A stretch of DNA of 36,761 nt, from positions 1 to 36,761 of the forward strand of contig CALGYB010000116.1 in assembly GCA_937935075.1 (NCBI GenBank), written 5' to 3'. The position numbers and the translations under genes were made by a program. Shown in pieces: positions 11,901 to 20,789 of the stretch. Under the pieces are notes generated by a model, which was not told where the DNA came from, did no database searches, and saw only the letters and a list, made by a program, of their open reading frames with translations. The first letter of the stretch is position 1, and each line of letters starts with the position of its first letter. Source of the DNA: an uncultured Roseiflexus sp. Lineage in GTDB: Bacteria; Chloroflexota; Chloroflexia; Chloroflexales; Roseiflexaceae.

Positions 11901-12590
11901 CTACGGCGCCAGACGATACCCGACTCCCCATTCCGTCAGCAGCAATTTCGGTTCGCGCGGATCCTGTTCAATTTTGCGGCGCAGGTGCCAGATATACACC
12001 TTGAGGTAGTCGTTATCCTTAGTGTACTCGTGCCCCCACACCCCGCGCAGGAGCGTTTCGTGATCGAGCACAGCGCCGGCGTGCTCGGCAAGCAGGAGAA
12101 GCAGATCGTACTCAGTTGGCGTCAGATCGATCGGCTCACCGCGCACCAACACCTCACGCTTTTGCTTGTCGATCATAATTTCGCCGCCACCGGCGACGAT
12201 CGGGCGATTAGGAGAGGGCACCCGACGCAGCAACGCTCGAATGCGAGCCGTCAGCTCATCCATGTTGAACGGCTTGGTCAGATAGTCATCGGCGCCGCTT
12301 TCCAGGCCGGTGACGATATCCTTGCTCTGCGTGCGCGCCGTCAGCATCAGCACCGGTATCTGCGAGAACTCGCGCAACCGCCGGCAGACCTCCCATCCGT
12401 CCATTTCCGGCATCATCACATCAAGGATCATCAGATCGGGATGCTGATCGCGCACCATCTGCAAACCCTGAGCGCCGCTCTCAGCCTCAATCACGCTGAA
12501 CCCCTCGTGCTCGAGGTTGATGCGCACCAGATCGCGCAGACCAGGCTCATCATCCACGATCAAGATTCGACGCTGCTCATTCCCCTGCAT
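11901..12590 (-). CDS. OmpR/PhoB-family response regulator
   Basis: This 229-residue regulator has an intact receiver domain: the acidic pair D13-D14 (ILIVDDEPGLRD), the phospho-acceptor D57 (MILDVMMPEMDG), the conserved Thr in VLMLTART and the Lys in YLTKPFNMDEL. A C-terminal OmpR-type winged helix follows, with LTPTEYDLLLLLAEHAG, VLDHETLLRGVWG and VYIWHLRRKIEQDP. On phosphorylation it should bind promoter DNA as a dimer. The ATG at 12590 places the receiver at the usual distance from the N-terminus; a longer start at 12656 would add 22 residues not typical of the family. No histidine kinase adjoins. It follows the thioredoxin gene by 84 bases and probably shares its transcript. Confidence 0.93.
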   Translation of the reverse strand: MQGNEQRRILIVDDEPGLRDLVRINLEHEGFSVIEAESGAQGLQMVRDQHPDLMILDVMMPEMDGWEVCRRLREFSQIPVLMLTARTQSKDIVTGLESGADDYLTKPFNMDELTARIRALLRRVPSPNRPIVAGGGEIMIDKQKREVLVRGEPIDLTPTEYDLLLLLAEHAGAVLDHETLLRGVWGHEYTKDNDYLKVYIWHLRRKIEQDPREPKLLLTEWGVGYRLAP

Positions 12591-12674
12591 GTCCTCACCC
12601 TTGCCTCTCGCGCCACACCGGCGCCAGTACACGCGGATTGATTTGGAAACCTGCACAGAGCCTTCGGCAATGTA

Positions 12675-13265
12675 CTACCGTAATTGTGCGAACAGCACTG
12701 CCACATCATCCGTCGTAAGCGTTCCAATGCGGACATACCGGATCGTACCCTCTCGATCGATAAAGTAACTGACCGGTATCGGCGAAATCTGGAACAACCG
12801 CGCCGCCTCTCCATCAACATCGAGCGCAATCGGGTAGGTGACTCCGTACCGCTGCACAAACTCGCGCACCGCCTCGTCACTGGTCTCCTGCCGACGCAGA
12901 TTGACGCCGACAATGACCAGCCCTTCGGATGCTAATCGCTGGTGCGCTGCCTGCAACGCCGGGGTTTCTTCCTTGCACGGTTCGCACCAGGTGCCCCAGA
13001 AATTGACCAGCACAACCTTGCCGCGCAGGTCTGCCAGACGCACACTGCCGCCGTCAAGCGTCGGCAGCGCCACGTCTGGCGCGGGGCGGTTCAACTCGCC
13101 AACCGCAGGCAACGCGGCGCCGTTTTCACGACCAACCGTGAACCAGACCAGACCAATGATCAGGACGCCGAGAAACGCCCCTGCTACAGATGTGATCAGT
13201 TCGCGCCTGCTGATGCCTCTCCGTTGAGACGATGCGCGTTTTGGAAGCGTTGTTTGTTCATTCAT
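12675..13265 (-). CDS. TlpA/ResA-type thioredoxin, membrane-anchored
   Basis: This 196-residue protein has a short basic N-terminus, one membrane anchor (about 26-43, including AGAFLGVLIIGLVWFTV) and an extracytoplasmic thioredoxin fold. The active site is WGTWCEPCKEE with C94 and C97, and a cis-proline loop PIPVSYFID follows. ResA/TlpA/CcmG-like proteins reduce the CxxCH cysteines of apocytochrome c so haem can be attached. Its position near a ccm operon, separated only by a toxin-antitoxin pair, supports that job. It lacks a distinct CcmG signature that I can name, so general extracytoplasmic disulfide reduction remains possible. The start ATG at 13265 follows a plausible promoter at 13290-13318. 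Confidence 0.88.
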   Translation of the reverse strand: MNEQTTLPKRASSQRRGISRRELITSVAGAFLGVLIIGLVWFTVGRENGAALPAVGELNRPAPDVALPTLDGGSVRLADLRGKVVLVNFWGTWCEPCKEETPALQAAHQRLASEGLVIVGVNLRRQETSDEAVREFVQRYGVTYPIALDVDGEAARLFQISPIPVSYFIDREGTIRYVRIGTLTTDDVAVLFAQLR

Positions 13266-13406: not shown

Positions 13407-13646
13407 ATGATCACTGTAGGATCGTATGAAGCAAAAACGCGTTTCTCTGAATTGCTGGCTCGTGTTCGTCGGGGTGAGCGAATTGTCATCACCCTCCATG
13501 GAACGCCGGTTGCTGTCCTTGCGCCGGTGGAAGAAACCTCCACACGTCCATATGCCGAGGTCATCGCCGAACTCCGGGCATTTCGCAGAGGGCGGCGCCT
13601 GAGCGGAATAACTGCGCGCGAGTTGATCGAGGAAGGGCGATCATGA
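13407..13646 (+). CDS. Phd/YefM-family antitoxin
   Basis: This 79-residue protein begins MITVGSYEAKTRFSELLARV, with the RGERIVITLHGTPVAVLAPVE core of Phd/YefM-type antitoxins: an N-terminal DNA-binding half and a flexible C-terminal tail (about 50-79) that would wrap and block the toxin. Its stop overlaps the toxin start in an ATGA, so translation is coupled and antitoxin is made first. With toxin it should repress the promoter at 13347-13391. The pair lies on the plus strand between two minus-strand cytochrome-maturation units, which suggests that it was inserted there. Confidence 0.88.
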   Translation: MITVGSYEAKTRFSELLARVRRGERIVITLHGTPVAVLAPVEETSTRPYAEVIAELRAFRRGRRLSGITARELIEEGRS

Positions 13647-14065
13647 GCGTCGATCAGCGGTTTGTCCTTGATGCATCTATCACTCTTGCCTGGTGTTTCG
13701 AGGACGAGAGCAGCGATCTGGCTGATCTGGCACTGGACCGGTTGGCGCAAACCTCAGCACTGGTTCCTGCGATCTGGTCTGTGGAGATTGGAAACGCCTT
13801 GCTCGGCGCTGAACGACGCGGACGGTTGAGTCAGGCGGAAAGCAATCGCTTTCTATGGTTGATTCGGGTGTTGCCGATTGAAATAGACGCTGTATCAGCA
13901 CCTCGAATGCTGAACGGTGTGGTCACGCTGGCGCGTGAACAGGGGCTGTCCACCTACGATGCCGCGTACCTGGAGTTGGCGATGCGCAATGGGCTGCCGC
14001 TGGCAACGCTCGACATAGCGCTGCAACGCGCAGCAGAACGCTGCGGCGTCCATCTCATTTCGTGA
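13643..14065 (+). CDS. VapC-like PIN-domain toxin
   Basis: This 140-residue protein is a PIN-domain ribonuclease toxin. The acidic metal-binding residues are visible: D10 (FVLDASITLAWC), E48 (WSVEIGNALLGAE), D106 (LSTYDAAYLELA) and D124 (ATLDIALQRAA). VapC toxins cleave tRNA or rRNA when free of antitoxin. Its ATG overlaps the antitoxin stop by four bases. All four active-site acids appear intact, so the toxin could be functional. The partner is Phd-like rather than VapB-like, a mix known in many genomes. Confidence 0.9.
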   Translation: MSVDQRFVLDASITLAWCFEDESSDLADLALDRLAQTSALVPAIWSVEIGNALLGAERRGRLSQAESNRFLWLIRVLPIEIDAVSAPRMLNGVVTLAREQGLSTYDAAYLELAMRNGLPLATLDIALQRAAERCGVHLIS

Positions 14066-14155: not shown

Positions 14156-15124
14156 CTACCTGCGCACCTGATCAATCAGGCGTTGCGCTTCGTTGGCGAC
14201 AGGTGATCCGGCGGGCGCCAGTGAAATAATCCGCTGCCAGACCTCAATGGCTTCATCGGTGCGCGGTGGTTGGGTCGATGCCAGGCACGAACCGAGATTG
14301 AGCAGCAGGCGCGTATCTTCGGGGCGTGCTGTCGTTGCCGCTTCGAGGTCCTTCAACCCTTCCACAACGAACGTCTGATCCCCCACGCCGGCGCCATAGA
14401 AGCAGCGAGAAGCGCCGAGGTCGCCGCGTGCGACGGCATTCGTCGGATCGAGCGCCAGGACGCGCTCGTAGGCTTTTGCCGCTTCGAGCCAGCGCGGCAG
14501 GCGTTGCTGGTACAACACGCTGTCGGGCGCCTGCTCTCGTACAATCTGCACGCTGTCGTACAGAAGGTTCGCATAGTCCAGCCACGCCTGCGCATCGTTC
14601 TCGTTCTGCTCGGCGAGTTGGCGGGCGCGGGCAATCATGGTCTCCAGCGCGTCCATCGGCGAAAGCGTGGGAGTGGGAACCGCCCGTGGCACACCCCCGC
14701 CACCGGTCAGGATCAATCCGCCAATGATCGACACCAGTGCAACTGCCAGCACCGCAATCACCGCTGCCGCCGGACCTGCAATTTGAGCCGATGGCGCCGG
14801 CTGGCTCAACGTAGGGCGGGCATTGAAATCGCGCGGACGCTCGGTATGCTGTGCCGGAGGAAGCGGACGGTAATCGGGCGCATCCTGGAAAGCCGCCTGC
14901 CGCTGTGCATCGTACTGCGCGCGGCGCTGCGCATCAGACAGCGTGGCATATGCTTCATCGATGATCGCCAGGCGCTGCTGCGCCAGTTGGACCAGATCCG
15001 CAGCAGCGCCGTTCAACTTTTGCGGGTCGTACTGTTCGCGCAAGCGCCGATAGGACGTGTTGATCGCCTCATCATCGGCATCAGGCGCAACGTGCAGGAT
15101 CTCGTAATAATCCGGCATCGTCAT
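14156..15124 (-). CDS. Membrane J-domain/TPR protein of the ccm operon
   Basis: The 322-residue product has an N-terminal J-like domain (about 4-75: PDYYEILHVAPDADDEAI, then AIIDEAYATLSDAQRRAQYDA), a proline-rich linker, one membrane segment (near 118-140) and TPR-like helices to the C-terminus (AWLDYANLLYDS, AAKAYERVLALDPTNA, LLLNLGSCLA). The HPD tripeptide that activates DnaK is changed to DPQ in REQYDPQK, so normal DnaK stimulation is doubtful. The stop of ccmF (TGA) is one base from its ATG, so the two are closely coupled. The predicted topology puts the J domain inside and the TPRs outside, as in CcmI-type apocytochrome chaperones; a role in cytochrome c maturation is inferred from this and from position. 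Confidence 0.75.
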   Translation of the reverse strand: MTMPDYYEILHVAPDADDEAINTSYRRLREQYDPQKLNGAAADLVQLAQQRLAIIDEAYATLSDAQRRAQYDAQRQAAFQDAPDYRPLPPAQHTERPRDFNARPTLSQPAPSAQIAGPAAAVIAVLAVALVSIIGGLILTGGGGVPRAVPTPTLSPMDALETMIARARQLAEQNENDAQAWLDYANLLYDSVQIVREQAPDSVLYQQRLPRWLEAAKAYERVLALDPTNAVARGDLGASRCFYGAGVGDQTFVVEGLKDLEAATTARPEDTRLLLNLGSCLASTQPPRTDEAIEVWQRIISLAPAGSPVANEAQRLIDQVRR

Positions 15125-15125
15125 A

Positions 15126-17489
15126 TCAGCGCAAACTTACAAAGCGCGCCAGTTCGCCAAACCCGCGCGGCAGGCGCACCCTCCGCCCTTCGAGCGCGCC
15201 GCGCCCTTCGAGCGTGCGCCGCACCACTGCAATCAGGCCGCCGGTGACGCCGATGATCACTCCCAGCCACACCAGCATCACTCCCGGCTTCAGGCTCAGG
15301 GTGATGACGGCTTTCGCAGGATCAACCGGCAGGTTCAGTCCTTCGACACGGATCAGCACCCGTCGCTGCAACGGGTCGAACGCTGCCAGCGTTGCCTGAT
15401 GACCGCCGGGCAATGCCGCAGGCAAGTCCATAATGCTGCCAACCGGGTCCGACGGGCTGGTCACCAACCGCACTTTGGGCGTCAGTTCGATCGATTCCCC
15501 TTCATAGGTGACGCGCAGTTTCGCCCCCACATCGGCGCTGCCGGTGGCGTGCGCATCCGGCACCTCGAATGCCAGGAACGTAAACTCGTAGGGTCCAACC
15601 GTTCCCGACTGCCCGATGCCCATATCCGCCATATTGCGGTCGTATGGCGGCTGATATTCCGACGGCGAAATGTAGACATCGCGGAACAATTCGCTTCGGA
15701 TCGAAGGGGTCGCCATCGTGGCGCCCATGGTCTGATTGAAATAGAGCTGCGGCGTCGCGCTAAAGGTCTCGTTCCCGTGGGTCACGGTCAAGTCGAGAAT
15801 GCCGCGACCCTCTGGCGTTTGTCGCCAGCCGTTGAACGTCACCGCGTAGCCGAACGCACTGACGCTCTCCCCTTCCGGCACGAGCAGGCGCACCTCCTCC
15901 GTCGCATACAGAGTCGAGGCAACCGCGCCAACCAGGAAGACCATCAGACCGACGTGCGCCAGGTAGCCGCCGATACGCAGCCAGCCGCTCCGCAAGGTGC
16001 GGACGATCATCAGGACGTTCGTGCCGAACGCAAAGGCGCACAGGGTGACATACGCGAGCGGCAACGGATCACGTGCGCCGAGCAGCAGCCCTACACAGGC
16101 AACAACGACTGCCAGGACCGCCGGGAAGCGCAGCGCGCGGAGCAGGGACCGTTTATTCGTATCACGCCAGCCGAGCAGCGGACCAATGATCAGAAGGATC
16201 ACCAGGATCAGGCCCAGCGGCGGTACGGTAGTGCTGTAGAAATCGCCCACCAGACCGAAGCGCCCGTCGGCGAACGGCTGTGCATTGGGGTCAAACGTCG
16301 TCCCATCATCGACCTGGAACGAACCGGCGAAGATCGACTGCAACTGATGCCCGACGCCGGGGATGGCGGAGATGAGCGGCATCGACGTACCCAACCCGAC
16401 GACCGCAGCGATAACCAGCAGTGCAATGATCCCCAGCACGAAGAAACTATCACGCGAAAGAAGTTTATCGGAGAGTGGCTTGCCCGGAATGTCGCGCCAG
16501 CGCCACGCCAGCACGCCAAAGCCGCCGATGACAAGGAGCGCCAGCGATGCGAAGAGAACCGTTTTCAGTCCCTCCTCGACGAACGAGTGCACCGAAAACG
16601 ACGACAGCACGCCGCTGCGGGTCAGGAACGTCGAATAGAAGACGAAAATATAGGTAGCAATTGCCAGAGCGAATGTTGTGCGCCGCAATCCATGACCGGT
16701 GCGCTGCACGAGCATGGCGTGCAGCAACGCGGTTGATGTCAGCCAGGGCACCAGCGACGAATTCTCAACCGGGTCCCATCCCCAGTAACCGCCCCACCCC
16801 AGCGTCTCATATGCCCAGTAGCCGCCGAGCAGCAATGCCAGGCCGAGGAACACCCAGGCTGCCAGCGTCCATGGCAGGGCGTCGTGCACCCAGCCATCGT
16901 AGTCGCGGCGCCACAACCCGCCAATGGCGAAGGCGAACGGCACAGCCATGAGCGCGAAGCCGACGAACAACACCGGCGGGTGGATGAGCATCCACATGTT
17001 CTGGAGCGTCGGGTTGAGTCCTTTACCGTCCGGCGGCGTCACCGCCACGCCATTCTGCATCAGAGGCACAAACGGGTTGCGGATCAGCATATAAAACAGG
17101 AGCGCCGCCTGGATCGCCATAAAAATCGTGAGCACATACGGCTCGGAGTGGCGCGTGCGGCGCACCAGGAATTGCGCCGCAATCACCCCCCACAGCGCCC
17201 AGATCACGAACGACCCCGGCTGACCAGCCCAGACCGCCGCCACACGAAAGGCTGGATCGAGCGCGCGCTCGGTGTAGTTATAGACATACTCAATATCGTA
17301 CCGCTGCGCGATGAACAGATAGTTCAGCAGCGCCACAATCGCCAGCACTGCAACCAGCGTCATTCGCACGCCGACTCGCCCGAAAGTCAGCGCCGCCAGA
17401 TTACCGCGCGGCGCCAGCGCATACCCGGCAGTCGCCAGCAGGGCGGACGCCAGCCCGGCGATGATCAGAGTTGTTCCAAGCAGATACAT
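15126..17489 (-). CDS. ccmF: Cytochrome c maturation haem lyase subunit CcmF
   Basis: CcmF is the membrane core of the System I haem lyase, which takes haem from CcmE and helps attach it to apocytochrome c. The 787-residue product is hydrophobic throughout the first 550 residues and carries the haem-handling tryptophan-rich motif GYWGWDPVENSSLVPWL near residue 240, preceded by YWAYETLGWG. A large extracytoplasmic domain follows toward the C-terminus, then a last membrane segment and a basic tail. The ATG at 17489 was chosen because GAGGGTGGG precedes it and MYLLGTTLIIAGLASALL is a typical family start; a frame open 38 codons further upstream has no family likeness. Length is a little above the usual 650 or so. 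Confidence 0.95.
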   Translation of the reverse strand: MYLLGTTLIIAGLASALLATAGYALAPRGNLAALTFGRVGVRMTLVAVLAIVALLNYLFIAQRYDIEYVYNYTERALDPAFRVAAVWAGQPGSFVIWALWGVIAAQFLVRRTRHSEPYVLTIFMAIQAALLFYMLIRNPFVPLMQNGVAVTPPDGKGLNPTLQNMWMLIHPPVLFVGFALMAVPFAFAIGGLWRRDYDGWVHDALPWTLAAWVFLGLALLLGGYWAYETLGWGGYWGWDPVENSSLVPWLTSTALLHAMLVQRTGHGLRRTTFALAIATYIFVFYSTFLTRSGVLSSFSVHSFVEEGLKTVLFASLALLVIGGFGVLAWRWRDIPGKPLSDKLLSRDSFFVLGIIALLVIAAVVGLGTSMPLISAIPGVGHQLQSIFAGSFQVDDGTTFDPNAQPFADGRFGLVGDFYSTTVPPLGLILVILLIIGPLLGWRDTNKRSLLRALRFPAVLAVVVACVGLLLGARDPLPLAYVTLCAFAFGTNVLMIVRTLRSGWLRIGGYLAHVGLMVFLVGAVASTLYATEEVRLLVPEGESVSAFGYAVTFNGWRQTPEGRGILDLTVTHGNETFSATPQLYFNQTMGATMATPSIRSELFRDVYISPSEYQPPYDRNMADMGIGQSGTVGPYEFTFLAFEVPDAHATGSADVGAKLRVTYEGESIELTPKVRLVTSPSDPVGSIMDLPAALPGGHQATLAAFDPLQRRVLIRVEGLNLPVDPAKAVITLSLKPGVMLVWLGVIIGVTGGLIAVVRRTLEGRGALEGRRVRLPRGFGELARFVSLR

Positions 17490-17555
17490 CCCACCCTCGA
17501 TATCTAGAGCGCTTCTTACCCTGCGTAAGTCATGCCCGGACGTTGTGCGGGTTAT

Positions 17556-17580
17556 GTCGGCTTCGACAGGCTCAGCCGAC
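17556..17580. repeat. Dispersed hairpin repeat, copy B
   Basis: GTCGGCT and AGCCGAC form perfect 7-base arms around the loop TCGACAGGCTC. The loop matches copy A at 14097, while arm bases differ but still pair. It lies between ccmE and ccmF. Confidence 0.6.
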
Positions 17581-17621
17581 GCGACACGCGGCGCCGGAGT
17601 CAAACATAAAGACTGTACACG

Positions 17622-18041
17622 TTACTGCGCAGCCGATTGCATTTCCTGATATTTCGACGGGCATTTGACGAGCAGATCATCGGCGAGGAAAACGCCGCGC
17701 GCTGTATCGTAGTGGCCAATCGCCACGATGCTCACCGCCTGCTCGAAATTCGACGGTTTTGGTTTAGCGTAGACGACCGGAATCATCTTGCCCGTGTTGT
17801 CCTGCAACATAAAGACGAAGTTGCCATCGGCGTCGTACCTGCCCATATCGCCGAGATAGCCGGCCAGTTGCACGCTGCGTCCGCTCTGCGTCGCTTCGTC
17901 GATGCTGACCGTGTACGGTCGGTACGACGCGGTCAGCCCGTAGTATCCCAGACCAATCGCCAGCACAATCACTGCCGCGCCGAGCATGTGGAGCGGCTTA
18001 ATCGCCGGTGCACGGCGAACTGGAGAAGAAAACGTCGCCAT
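17622..18041 (-). CDS. ccmE: Haem chaperone CcmE, cysteine-type variant
   Basis: CcmE carries haem covalently outside the membrane from CcmABCD to CcmF. The 139-residue product has an N-terminal anchor (about 18-38) and an OB-fold beta domain (VQLAGYLGDMGRY, NFVFMLQD, IPVVYAKPKPSNF, VSIVAIGHYD). In classical CcmE the haem-binding residue is His in an H-x-x-x-Y motif; here it is C127 with Y131 in VKCPSKY. A Cys-type CcmE is known from some archaea and sulfate reducers. The ATG at 18041 has AGGAGG at ideal spacing; an upstream start would add 13 unlikely residues. It lies 25 bases after the small CcmD-like gene. Confidence 0.92.
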   Translation of the reverse strand: MATFSSPVRRAPAIKPLHMLGAAVIVLAIGLGYYGLTASYRPYTVSIDEATQSGRSVQLAGYLGDMGRYDADGNFVFMLQDNTGKMIPVVYAKPKPSNFEQAVSIVAIGHYDTARGVFLADDLLVKCPSKYQEMQSAAQ

Positions 18042-18066
18042 TGTCGCCTCCTGGCGTCTCAAACGC

Positions 18067-18300
18067 TTACTCTTGAGCATCTGTCACCGATACCGTCTCA
18101 CGCGCGTGGCCATTGCGAGTTTCGAGGGTGGCGCGCGGCGTCGCTGCCGGCTCAACCGGCGCTTCCTCATCGAGGCGGCGGCGCAGTTCGCGGGTGGCGC
18201 TATCGATCCGCCACAGAAAGATAAAAATACCGATCCAGACCGTCAGCGCCACTGCCAGCGCCGTGTAGATCGCAATCGCCGGTTCAAGCAGGAAGTTCAT
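18067..18300 (-). CDS. Small CcmD-like membrane protein
   Basis: The 77-residue product has an N-terminal single membrane segment (about 10-32, AIYTALAVALTVWIGIFIFLWRI) followed by a charged helix (DSATRELRRRLDEE) and a low-complexity tail. This shape and position between ccmC and ccmE fit CcmD, the small subunit that holds CcmC, haem and CcmE together and helps release holo-CcmE. CcmD is poorly conserved in sequence, so assignment rests on topology and order. The ATG at 18300 overlaps the end of ccmC by 17 bases and has AGGCGG upstream within it. Confidence 0.75.
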   Translation of the reverse strand: MNFLLEPAIAIYTALAVALTVWIGIFIFLWRIDSATRELRRRLDEEAPVEPAATPRATLETRNGHARETVSVTDAQE

Positions 18301-19270
18301 AAGCCGCCTCCCGTCGCGCCAGACGCTCCTGCAACAGCAGCACGTCGGCACGAAGTCGATACAACCAGATAAACAACCCCAGAAACCCAATATTTGCCGC
18401 CATAAAGGTCCAGAAAGTGCGGCTATTGCTCAGCAGCCCGCTTCCTGGCGCTTCCATGTTGAGCAGCACCCGACCATTCGCCAGATCGACGCCTTCGACC
18501 GCCAGAAGGAACTGTTGACCGGGGAACTCAGGACGATCCGCCGGTTTACCGCTTGCCAGTTCAAACGACGGCTCCAGCAACGCCACCTCGCGCAAGCCGG
18601 GCATACGCACTTCCACCTGCGCAACCGCAAGATCGCCGCGTTGCTCAACCCCTTGCAGCGCCAGCACCACATCACCAAGCTGACCGATGCGCGTCCCATT
18701 CAATTCAAGCCAGATGCCGTCGCAATGGCTGCCCTGAATGAAGGCGCAATTCGGATGCAGCGTGCTATCGGCCATGCGCGGCGCAACGAACAGGAGGAAC
18801 GGCATCGTCACTGCGGCGAACAGATTGTAGACTGCCGCGAGGCGACGGCGGCGCTCAACATCATCGAGCGCGGAACGCAGCGCGAAGTAGGCGGCATAGA
18901 TCAGGAGCAGAATGAGAATCGTCGTCTCGCGCGGATCCCAGTTCCATGGCGTCCCCCAGACGATATTGGCGAACCACATCCCGGAAACGGTTGCCAGCGC
19001 GCAGAACAGGAATCCGGCTTCAGCCGCCGCCACGGCGCCGGCATCGTCCGCAGGTCGGCGTTTCCAGAGATAACGGATGCTGTACACTGCAGAAACAGCA
19101 AAGGCGACGGTTGTAATCCAGGCGGTGGGAACGTGCAGAATAATGATACGCCCGGCGTCGCCGAGGCCAACGTACTGCGGCACGATCAGGAACATCGCTA
19201 CGACGATTCCGGACATCCAGACGCCAAGGAGGAACTTGGCAGCCTGATCGAGGCGAAGCCTGTCACTCAT
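18284..19270 (-). CDS. ccmC: Haem-handling membrane protein CcmC with extra domain
   Basis: CcmC presents haem to CcmE. The 328-residue product has the expected membrane segments, the tryptophan-rich motif WGTPWNWDPRET near 105-116, and the haem axial histidines H46 (LHVPTAW) and H172 (STLHPN). Ordinary CcmC is about 240 residues. Here some 110 residues (about 173-285) are inserted after the second His and before the last membrane segment (TFMAANIGFLGLFIWLYRL). The insert is predicted outside the membrane and includes a pair of cysteines, C175 and C183, and beta-rich sequence. The ATG at 19270 was chosen on family likeness; a weak AAAGAG precedes it. It lies 78 bases after ccmB. Confidence 0.93.
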   Translation of the reverse strand: MSDRLRLDQAAKFLLGVWMSGIVVAMFLIVPQYVGLGDAGRIIILHVPTAWITTVAFAVSAVYSIRYLWKRRPADDAGAVAAAEAGFLFCALATVSGMWFANIVWGTPWNWDPRETTILILLLIYAAYFALRSALDDVERRRRLAAVYNLFAAVTMPFLLFVAPRMADSTLHPNCAFIQGSHCDGIWLELNGTRIGQLGDVVLALQGVEQRGDLAVAQVEVRMPGLREVALLEPSFELASGKPADRPEFPGQQFLLAVEGVDLANGRVLLNMEAPGSGLLSNSRTFWTFMAANIGFLGLFIWLYRLRADVLLLQERLARREAAYELPA

Positions 19271-19348
19271 GGAACGGCTCTTTCTAGGCATCGCGCGGAT
19301 GCTGATTGCTGAAATGATACTACATGTGACAGGGTAAATCAAATGTTT

Positions 19349-20098
19349 TTACGGTTCCCATACACTGTTGAACAGGAAAAGTGAAGCTGTAAAGAGAGCA
19401 ATTGTATACCCCGCCAGCACCTGCAATGAACCGACGCCGCTCTCCCACCCGCGCCCCGCTATCGCATTGGCGCTTCCCTGAATGGCAACCACCAGCAGCG
19501 GCGCCAGCAACGGGAACGACAGCACTGCAAAGAGCGCCCCTTTCACGCTGGCGCGCGCAATGATCGCTGCGATCAACGTCGTCGCCGCCACCAGCCCCAG
19601 GCTGCCCGCCAGCAGCAGCGCCGCCAGCAACCCCGGGTTGCCCGCCTGCACCCGCAGCATGATGATGAAGAGCGTGGTCGTCACTGCAACGAGCAGCAGC
19701 AGCAGCGCCAGATTGAACAGCAGTTTACCGAGGAAAACAGCGGTCGGGCGGGCGGAAAGGCGCAGCGCAGCGGCAGTGCGCGCTTCTTCTTCCTGTACGA
19801 AGGCGCGTGCCAGACCGGTGAACGCCGCAAACAGAATAGCGACCCACAGCAGCGCCGCCTGGATGATCGGCAGGTCGGCATTGCGTGAGACGGTCAGCGG
19901 TCCCATCCCCATGCTCATTGCCACAACGGTGCTGACGGCGAACAGCAGAATGGCGTTGAGCGCGTAGCGTGTCCGCAGCTCGCTGCGCACATCCTTGCGG
20001 AACACCGCCCACGCCGCCATCAGGAGCGGCGCTTCTGACGGCATTGCGGTCGAGGAAGTCTCAATCGCGCTCTGAGGTGAAATATGCGGGTCCATCAC
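19349..20098 (-). CDS. ccmB: Haem exporter membrane subunit CcmB
   Basis: CcmB is the permease partner of CcmA in the complex that releases holo-CcmE. The 249-residue product has a family-like cytoplasmic start AWAVFRKDVRSELRTRYALN followed by six hydrophobic segments, including FAVSTVVAMSMGMG, VAILFAAFTGLARAFV and a final YTIALFTASLFLFNSVW. The frame opens with GTG at 20098 followed at once by ATG at 20095; neither has a strong Shine-Dalgarno. It lies 58 bases after ccmA and continues to ccmC on the same strand. The N-terminal 25 residues before AWAVFRKD are longer than usual. Confidence 0.92.
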   Translation of the reverse strand: MMDPHISPQSAIETSSTAMPSEAPLLMAAWAVFRKDVRSELRTRYALNAILLFAVSTVVAMSMGMGPLTVSRNADLPIIQAALLWVAILFAAFTGLARAFVQEEEARTAAALRLSARPTAVFLGKLLFNLALLLLLVAVTTTLFIIMLRVQAGNPGLLAALLLAGSLGLVAATTLIAAIIARASVKGALFAVLSFPLLAPLLVVAIQGSANAIAGRGWESGVGSLQVLAGYTIALFTASLFLFNSVWEP

Positions 20099-20156: not shown

Positions 20157-20789
20157 CTATTGCGCCAACCGCAGGATGTAATCGCCAAACCGTTCTTCAC
20201 GCGGGTCATTGGTGGCAATGATTGTGATTCCATGATCGCGCTGCCGGGCGATCACTTGTTCGACCAGCGCCACACCACGCGCATCGAAGGTCACAGTCGG
20301 TTCGTCGAGCGCCAGGATCCGCGGACGGTGCAGCAACGCATAGGCATAACGCAACCGCTGCGTCATACCCGACGAGTACGCCGCCAGGAGATCGTCGCCG
20401 CGCCCGCCTAACCCAACCCGATCGAGCAGTGCTTCCAGGTCGGCGCGGGTGCAGCGAATGCCCCGCACGGCGGCGAAAAATGCCAGGTTCTCCAGGGCGG
20501 TCAACTCACGGTAGAGGTACAGATCGGGCGCAACCCAGCCAAGGAGGTGCAACGCCTCCGATGGGCGCAGGACCGTTCCGTTCGTCCTGATCACCACTGT
20601 GCCGCGCGCCGGGCGTTGCAACCCGCAGATAACCCGCAGCAACGAACTCTTCCCGCTGCCATTGGCGCCGGCCACGACCAGCGTCTCACCGGCGCACAAC
20701 TCGAACGATACGCCCGCCAGCACCCGCCGCGCGCCGTACTCGATTGCCACGTCGTTGACGATTAAACGCAAAGGTTCGTTCATTCGCAT
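20157..20789 (-). CDS. ccmA: ABC ATPase CcmA
   Basis: CcmA powers release of haem-loaded CcmE from the CcmBCD complex. The 210-residue product has Walker A GANGSGKSS near 41-49, the signature YSSGMTQRL near 137-145, and Walker B ILALDEP near 157-163. The switch histidine of the H-loop, normally in a T-H-D context, is Asn in IIATNDP (near 193). CcmA proteins are often non-canonical here, but a missing His should slow hydrolysis. Two possible ATG starts (20789 and 20783) lie six bases apart. It is the first gene of the ccm operon A-B-C-D-E-F plus the J/TPR gene, all on the minus strand. Confidence 0.94.
   Translation of the reverse strand: MRMNEPLRLIVNDVAIEYGARRVLAGVSFELCAGETLVVAGANGSGKSSLLRVICGLQRPARGTVVIRTNGTVLRPSEALHLLGWVAPDLYLYRELTALENLAFFAAVRGIRCTRADLEALLDRVGLGGRGDDLLAAYSSGMTQRLRYAYALLHRPRILALDEPTVTFDARGVALVEQVIARQRDHGITIIATNDPREERFGDYILRLAQ

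Follow-up and report, generated by a model that had tools for sequence, protein, structure and literature searches.

The closest described counterparts of the protein considered here are CcmI and NrfG, extracytoplasmic TPR proteins of the Ccm and Nrf systems that bind the apoprotein (PMC3884852). CcmI of R. capsulatus and P. aeruginosa, and likewise the C-terminal part of E. coli CcmH, is a membrane-anchored TPR protein encoded with ccmF; the N-terminal part of CcmI has two TM helices, a short cytoplasmic region and the family signature TIGR03142, and in R. capsulatus a cytoplasmic leucine zipper serves as an interaction element (PMC3884852). NrfG is encoded beside NrfE, a haem lyase paralogous to CcmF, and has as its partner NrfF, a paralogue of CcmH. 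In the System I* variant, a cysteine of CcmE replaces the haem-binding histidine; the absence of CcmH, already known for some of these organisms, is common there without being a defining feature, Chloroflexi are among the holders of Cys-type CcmE, and CcmI enhances cytochrome production without being absolutely required (PMC3601427).

The window, a 36,761-nt stretch of DNA from an uncultured Roseiflexus sp., carries a ccm operon with both of these System I* features. Its last gene encodes a protein that combines a J-like domain, one transmembrane helix and a TPR domain (J-TM-TPR). The genes are as follows:

20157..20789, minus strand: ccmA (ABC_tran and TIGR01189)
19349..20098, minus strand: ccmB (PF03379)
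18284..19342, minus strand: ccmC
18067..18300, minus strand: probable ccmD, 77 aa, between ccmC and ccmE (weak match to PF20077, CcmD_alt, E 0.0037, below cut-off)
17622..18080, minus strand: ccmE of the Cys type (KCPSKY; PF03100)
15126..17603, minus strand: ccmF, haem lyase (PF01578 and PF16327)
14156..15124, minus strand: J-TM-TPR gene, 322 aa, ATG start, last gene of the ccm operon
13407..14065, plus strand: Phd/YefM antitoxin and PIN toxin pair (PF02604, E 6e-12; PF01850, E 1e-7)
12675..13265, minus strand: resA/ccmG-like thioredoxin gene (PF00578; WCEPC), here without a J-like domain

The stop codon of ccmF ends at 15126 and the J-TM-TPR gene begins at 15124 on the same strand, leaving the single-base gap given in the first-pass annotation. 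Homologues of CcmF begin at residues 30–39 of the ccmF open reading frame listed from TTG 17603, and the true start is probably the Met at about 17489, which would give a CcmF of 787 aa. The window's CcmE ends in KCPSKY, and the CPSKY motif of Cys-type CcmE was read in 14 loci of the order. The Phd/YefM–PIN pair, encoded on the other strand, separates the J-TM-TPR gene from resA and looks like an insertion, since the counterpart gap in another genome of the genus (G065) is only ~104 nt. A gene for a PhoB/MtrA-type response regulator (11901–12656, minus strand) comes after the thioredoxin gene order-wide, as if it were a member of the ccm operon.

The J-TM-TPR reading frame is not a chance one: homologues are found across the genus (76–90% identity) and elsewhere in its order, the filamentous Chloroflexales (31–53%; tblastn), and both domains are under purifying selection, less strongly in the J part (dN/dS about 0.15–0.23 in codon comparisons within the genus) than in the TPR part (0.04–0.06). 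Somewhat more likely than not, we consider, the protein is a constant component of the System I*-type Ccm machine of the Chloroflexales, which has a Cys-type CcmE and lacks CcmH; its TPR domain would be a CcmI-like holder outside the membrane and its J-like domain a docking module.

The position beside ccmF is conserved well beyond the genus. Among 82 Chloroflexales genomes surveyed, 75 contain a homologue (74 listed by tblastn, plus a fragment at a contig end in G073), and in 69 of the 74 listed it shares the strand of ccmF and lies 5–803 nt after it. The other five comprise four on contigs apart from ccmF and one in a genome without a ccmF match. This adjacency spans four families of the order, so that the link to ccmF suspected in the first-pass annotation extends to the organism's relatives. 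The gene was not found in seven of the 82 genomes (G019, G029, G061, G062, G063, G064 and G080), most of which are fragmentary assemblies; real loss is possible in G029 and G063, because other sequence comes after their ccmF. Outside the order, about 360 Chloroflexota genomes (from a 400-genome sample) yielded no full-length homologue, only J-only or TPR-only matches, and a search with one Chloroflexus protein gave full-length matches in Chloroflexota only, those elsewhere being confined wholly or mostly to the J part.

The distribution of CcmH is complementary to this. Its family, PF03918, matches in none of the 82 genomes of the order and in 127 of the 251 genomes of a phylum sample, all 127 of them outside the order; in other Chloroflexota loci that we read, ccmE, ccmF and ccmH are consecutive, and PF03918 confirmed CcmH in the five copies tested. 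With CcmH absent from the order, J-TM-TPR, directly after ccmF, fills the slot that CcmH has elsewhere in the phylum. The CcmI N-terminal family TIGR03142 is likewise absent from all 82 genomes, and it is not among the families listed for 31 members of the J-TM-TPR family. Thus the lack of CcmH and CcmI, first noticed within the operon, holds for the whole of this genome and throughout the order sampled. J-TM-TPR itself has neither a PF03918 match nor a CXXC motif, and is therefore unable to take the redox role of CcmH; in the window's operon only ResA, with its WCEPC, could do so. In other Chloroflexota, the gene after ccmH, or after the thioredoxin gene next to it, encodes a small TM protein that has zinc ribbons at its C-terminus (L100 10746–11288, L110 6639–7142), and for the L110 protein there is a weak match to CcmI-N (E 6e-4).

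A feature that the first-pass annotation had not recorded is that the J-like module also occurs on the downstream thioredoxin of relatives. As in CcmG/ResA systems, a thioredoxin is encoded downstream in the operon; unlike CcmG and ResA, the ResA/CcmG-like protein of most relatives has at its N-terminus a J-like domain, followed by its TM helix (J-TM-Trx; e.g. L041, L042, L043, L045, L046). The gene after J-TM-TPR encodes J-TM-Trx in 48 genomes and a plain thioredoxin in 17, including those of the window's genus. A model of J-TM-Trx (mean pLDDT 89.7) has the ResA fold, with a Foldseek E of 3e-16 to 1st9. In six genomes (G043–G048) the J-like domain has been lost from both proteins and the TPR part kept, and the two J-less cases read in detail (L037 and L053) retain the TM region; the J-like module is thus accessory and not essential.

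Within the window's protein, the parts are arranged as follows:

14909..15112, minus strand: J-like domain, residues 5–72, predicted cytosolic (PF00226, E 3e-13; pLDDT mostly 86–97)
15020..15028, minus strand: HPD-equivalent site, D33-P34-Q35
14852..14875, minus strand: linker motif DYRPLPPA, residues 84–91, predicted cytosolic (D84, P87 and L88 invariant)
14708..14764, minus strand: transmembrane helix, residues 121–139 (KD mean 2.9)
14159..14659, minus strand: TPR domain, residues 156–322, predicted extracytoplasmic (Pfam TPR families at ~209–305; pLDDT 91–98)

Residues 121–139 form the only strongly hydrophobic stretch. An AlphaFold2 model built with 31 homologues (mean pLDDT 84.9) has J-type helices at 6–80, a TM helix at 118–139 and helical repeats at 156–321, the linkers being at low confidence. 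ResA and CcmG thioredoxins act outside the membrane, and since the J-TM start is common to J-TM-Trx and J-TM-TPR, both proteins would be oriented N-in/C-out. The positive-inside charge pattern of J-TM-TPR agrees with this, with a mean of 4.7 K+R per 30 residues before the TM helix and 1.5 after it (6.2 and 2.4 in J-TM-Trx). A cytosolic J-like domain, a single membrane crossing and a TPR domain outside are thus strongly predicted, the same topology as was first proposed for the protein. The DYRPLPPA linker belongs to the best conserved parts of the protein, LDYRPLP being kept even in L037 (G043), which has lost the J-like domain.

The J-like domain retains its family identity and has lost its signature residue. 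PF00226 matches all 31 J-TM-TPR family members, and the top sequence matches are J domains of DnaJ with solved structures (E 4e-16). Residues 33–35 read DPQ, as the first-pass annotation had it, and the histidine of the HPD site is absent from 31 of 31 J-TM-TPR and 19 of 19 J-TM-Trx proteins, whereas HPD is kept in all 22 other J domains compared, which come from the window's own genome (three), other Chloroflexota and other phyla. J proteins require this histidine for stimulating Hsp70, so that its loss in 50 of 50 sequences supports the view that the J part is probably no longer a DnaK activator. Like DnaJ and DjlA, J-TM-TPR has an N-terminal J fold, and in DjlA too a J domain goes together with a TM segment; the differences are that J-TM-TPR lacks HPD and that its J part is joined, through the membrane, to a TPR domain on the outside.

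In a tree with the HPD site masked, 27 Ccm J-like domains fall on one side of a branch (99/93) and 22 HPD-bearing domains on the opposite side. An earlier tree had placed a long-branch HPD row (L198) among the Ccm J-like domains, and this row was omitted from the second tree; with ~80 columns each, both trees are too small to settle the inner order. The J-like domains of J-TM-TPR and J-TM-Trx are closely related, forming one clade in the second tree. The ratio of dN in the J part to dN in the TPR part comes to 1.86 and 2.53 in the two genera tested whose thioredoxin has lost its J domain, against 0.82–1.89 (median about 1.04) in eight groups that keep it; a higher ratio after such loss would be expected if the two J domains were coupled, a hint only, since two groups are set against eight and the ranges overlap. 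In other Chloroflexota, J proteins with HPD intact contain hydrophobic segments and, C-terminally, an HExxH motif resembling that of metalloproteases, e.g. HELAHHFG (L191–L196, L199).

The TPR domain is less easily placed. In profile alignments it matches E. coli NrfG at E 5e-7 (119 columns) and the C-terminus of E. coli CcmH at E 1e-6 (137 columns); five TPR proteins of the same genome gave somewhat poorer values of 8.6e-6 to 0.02. PF23914, the CcmH/CcmI-type TPR family, matches 23 of the 31 members (E down to 5e-7), with listed scores of 21–30 bits that lie under the cut-off of 42; it also picks up unrelated TPR proteins, in 13 of the 14 control genomes, and we rejected it as proof of a CcmI-type TPR. 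Outside the order, the TPR part is closest to TM-TPR proteins from two other Chloroflexota (E 1e-16 to 1e-19; L201 1932–2657, L202 2281–3015), which are without a J domain and are encoded near lexA-like genes, that of L202 also beside a holA-like gene. As these are not beside ccm genes, we dropped them as candidates for the CcmI of their lineages. Since they are closer relatives than the Ccm proteins, local recruitment of a TM-TPR protein is as likely as descent from CcmI.

By VIA-align the nearest solved fold is that of TatT (3u64; Z 16.9, 2.3 A over 169 residues). The Treponema protein (Tp0956, TatT/TPAT family), which belongs to a TRAP transporter-associated system, shares the TPR fold over this length, but is only 14% identical and has no J-like domain. 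The NrfG structure 2E2E is not among the VIA-align matches listed, helical repeats giving many high scores, and the Foldseek/VIA listing was accordingly rejected as proof of an NrfG-like fold.

Taken together, these data bear unequally on the idea that J-TM-TPR is a substitute for CcmI. The adjacency to ccmF, the absence of CcmH and CcmI and the predicted topology all favour it as regards function; membership of the CcmI family proper does not stand, as TIGR03142 is missing, and there is one TM helix preceded by a J-like domain of ~75 residues in place of the two helices and short cytoplasmic region of CcmI. The likeness to NrfG, a TPR protein encoded next to a CcmF-type lyase, is bounded in the same way, NrfG having no J-like domain and its partner NrfF being absent here. 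The Chloroflexales machine, with KCPSKY in CcmE and no CcmH, resembles System I* (PMC3601427) and appears to be a variant of it set apart by the J-like domains.

Synteny with ccmF and the absence of CcmH would also fit a scaffold protein of the Ccm machine, whose TPR domain has CcmF, CcmE or the thioredoxin as its ligand and which replaces CcmH or CcmI structurally without chaperoning the substrate. Such a role would suit a protein that, having no CXXC, cannot do the redox work of CcmH, and it has a parallel in TatT, the best structural neighbour, which binds a partner protein (4di3 is titled as a TatP–TatT complex). Apocytochrome binding is nevertheless the simpler analogy, because CcmI and NrfG bind apoprotein (PMC3884852), and we regard the scaffold as rather unlikely. 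A further possibility, that the gene encodes an ordinary membrane TPR protein carried along with the operon, without a Ccm function of its own, would account for the unrelated contexts of the TPR relatives outside the order and for the few genomes that appear to be without the gene. It would not account for an adjacency maintained over four families, with only 1 nt between the genes in the window's genome, nor for the strong purifying selection on the TPR part and a J-like module common to the neighbouring thioredoxin; of all the readings it has the least credibility.

On the cytosolic side, the retention of the J fold, with PF00226 matching every member and confident helices in the model, together with some remaining basic residues of helix II (YRRLREQ), might point to a domain that still works with Hsp70 or inhibits it, bringing DnaK to the cytosolic face of the lyase, e.g. 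for CcmF insertion. Set against the uniform loss of the HPD histidine here and its uniform retention in the other J domains compared, this is very improbable. We thus return to a CcmI-like holder with a J-like docking module. That the TPR domain fills the role of CcmI by keeping apocytochrome c beside CcmF is a view we take with moderate confidence, by analogy; that the J-like domain is a cytosolic docking module and not an Hsp70 co-chaperone, with the J-like domain of the reductant as its simplest partner, is a weaker suggestion.

Such a machine could operate as follows. The outside TPR domain would hold apocytochrome c for CcmF, as CcmI and NrfG do, and ResA or J-TM-Trx would reduce the CXXCH of the apocytochrome; the J-like domains would dock in the cytosol, most simply with each other, and their pairing would keep the TPR holder and the CXXCH reductant together with the lyase. 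Tentatively, and more doubtfully than the assignment of the protein to the Ccm machine, the duplicated HPD-less J domain may be a cytosolic plug-and-socket whose pairing aligns the TPR holder and the thiol reductant outside, beside CcmF, replacing CcmH/CcmI. The leucine zipper of R. capsulatus CcmI is a precedent, though of another kind, for a CcmI-type protein that docks through a part in the cytosol.

In the literature covered, which includes few subscription papers, we found no described case of J-like domains on Ccm TPR or thioredoxin subunits, a weak negative; nor did any paper there join Chloroflexus with CcmF, or CcmI with both J-domain and TPR. Within that coverage, a cytosolic J-like domain linked to outside TPRs in a Ccm operon is, as first supposed, an undescribed arrangement. 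In this natural, order-wide design, a TPR protein and a ResA-type reductant serve as dedicated subunits that share an inactivated cytosolic J domain. This suggests a previously unrecognised way of holding a haem-attachment machine together, bears on how System I* machines work without CcmH, and predicts a specific, testable protein–protein contact. If true, it would clearly exemplify a J domain whose role has changed from controlling a chaperone to assembling a machine across a membrane. It also offers a basis for naming genes that are likely annotated merely as DnaJ-domain or TPR proteins.

In a few genomes there is an additional ccmF of divergent sequence, in L047 about 38% identical, that is followed by a J-TM-Trx of its own and has no J-TM-TPR (L047 7174–10307, L049, G054:C221 and G063:C1224). 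This paralogue is possibly a dedicated lyase for special cytochromes.
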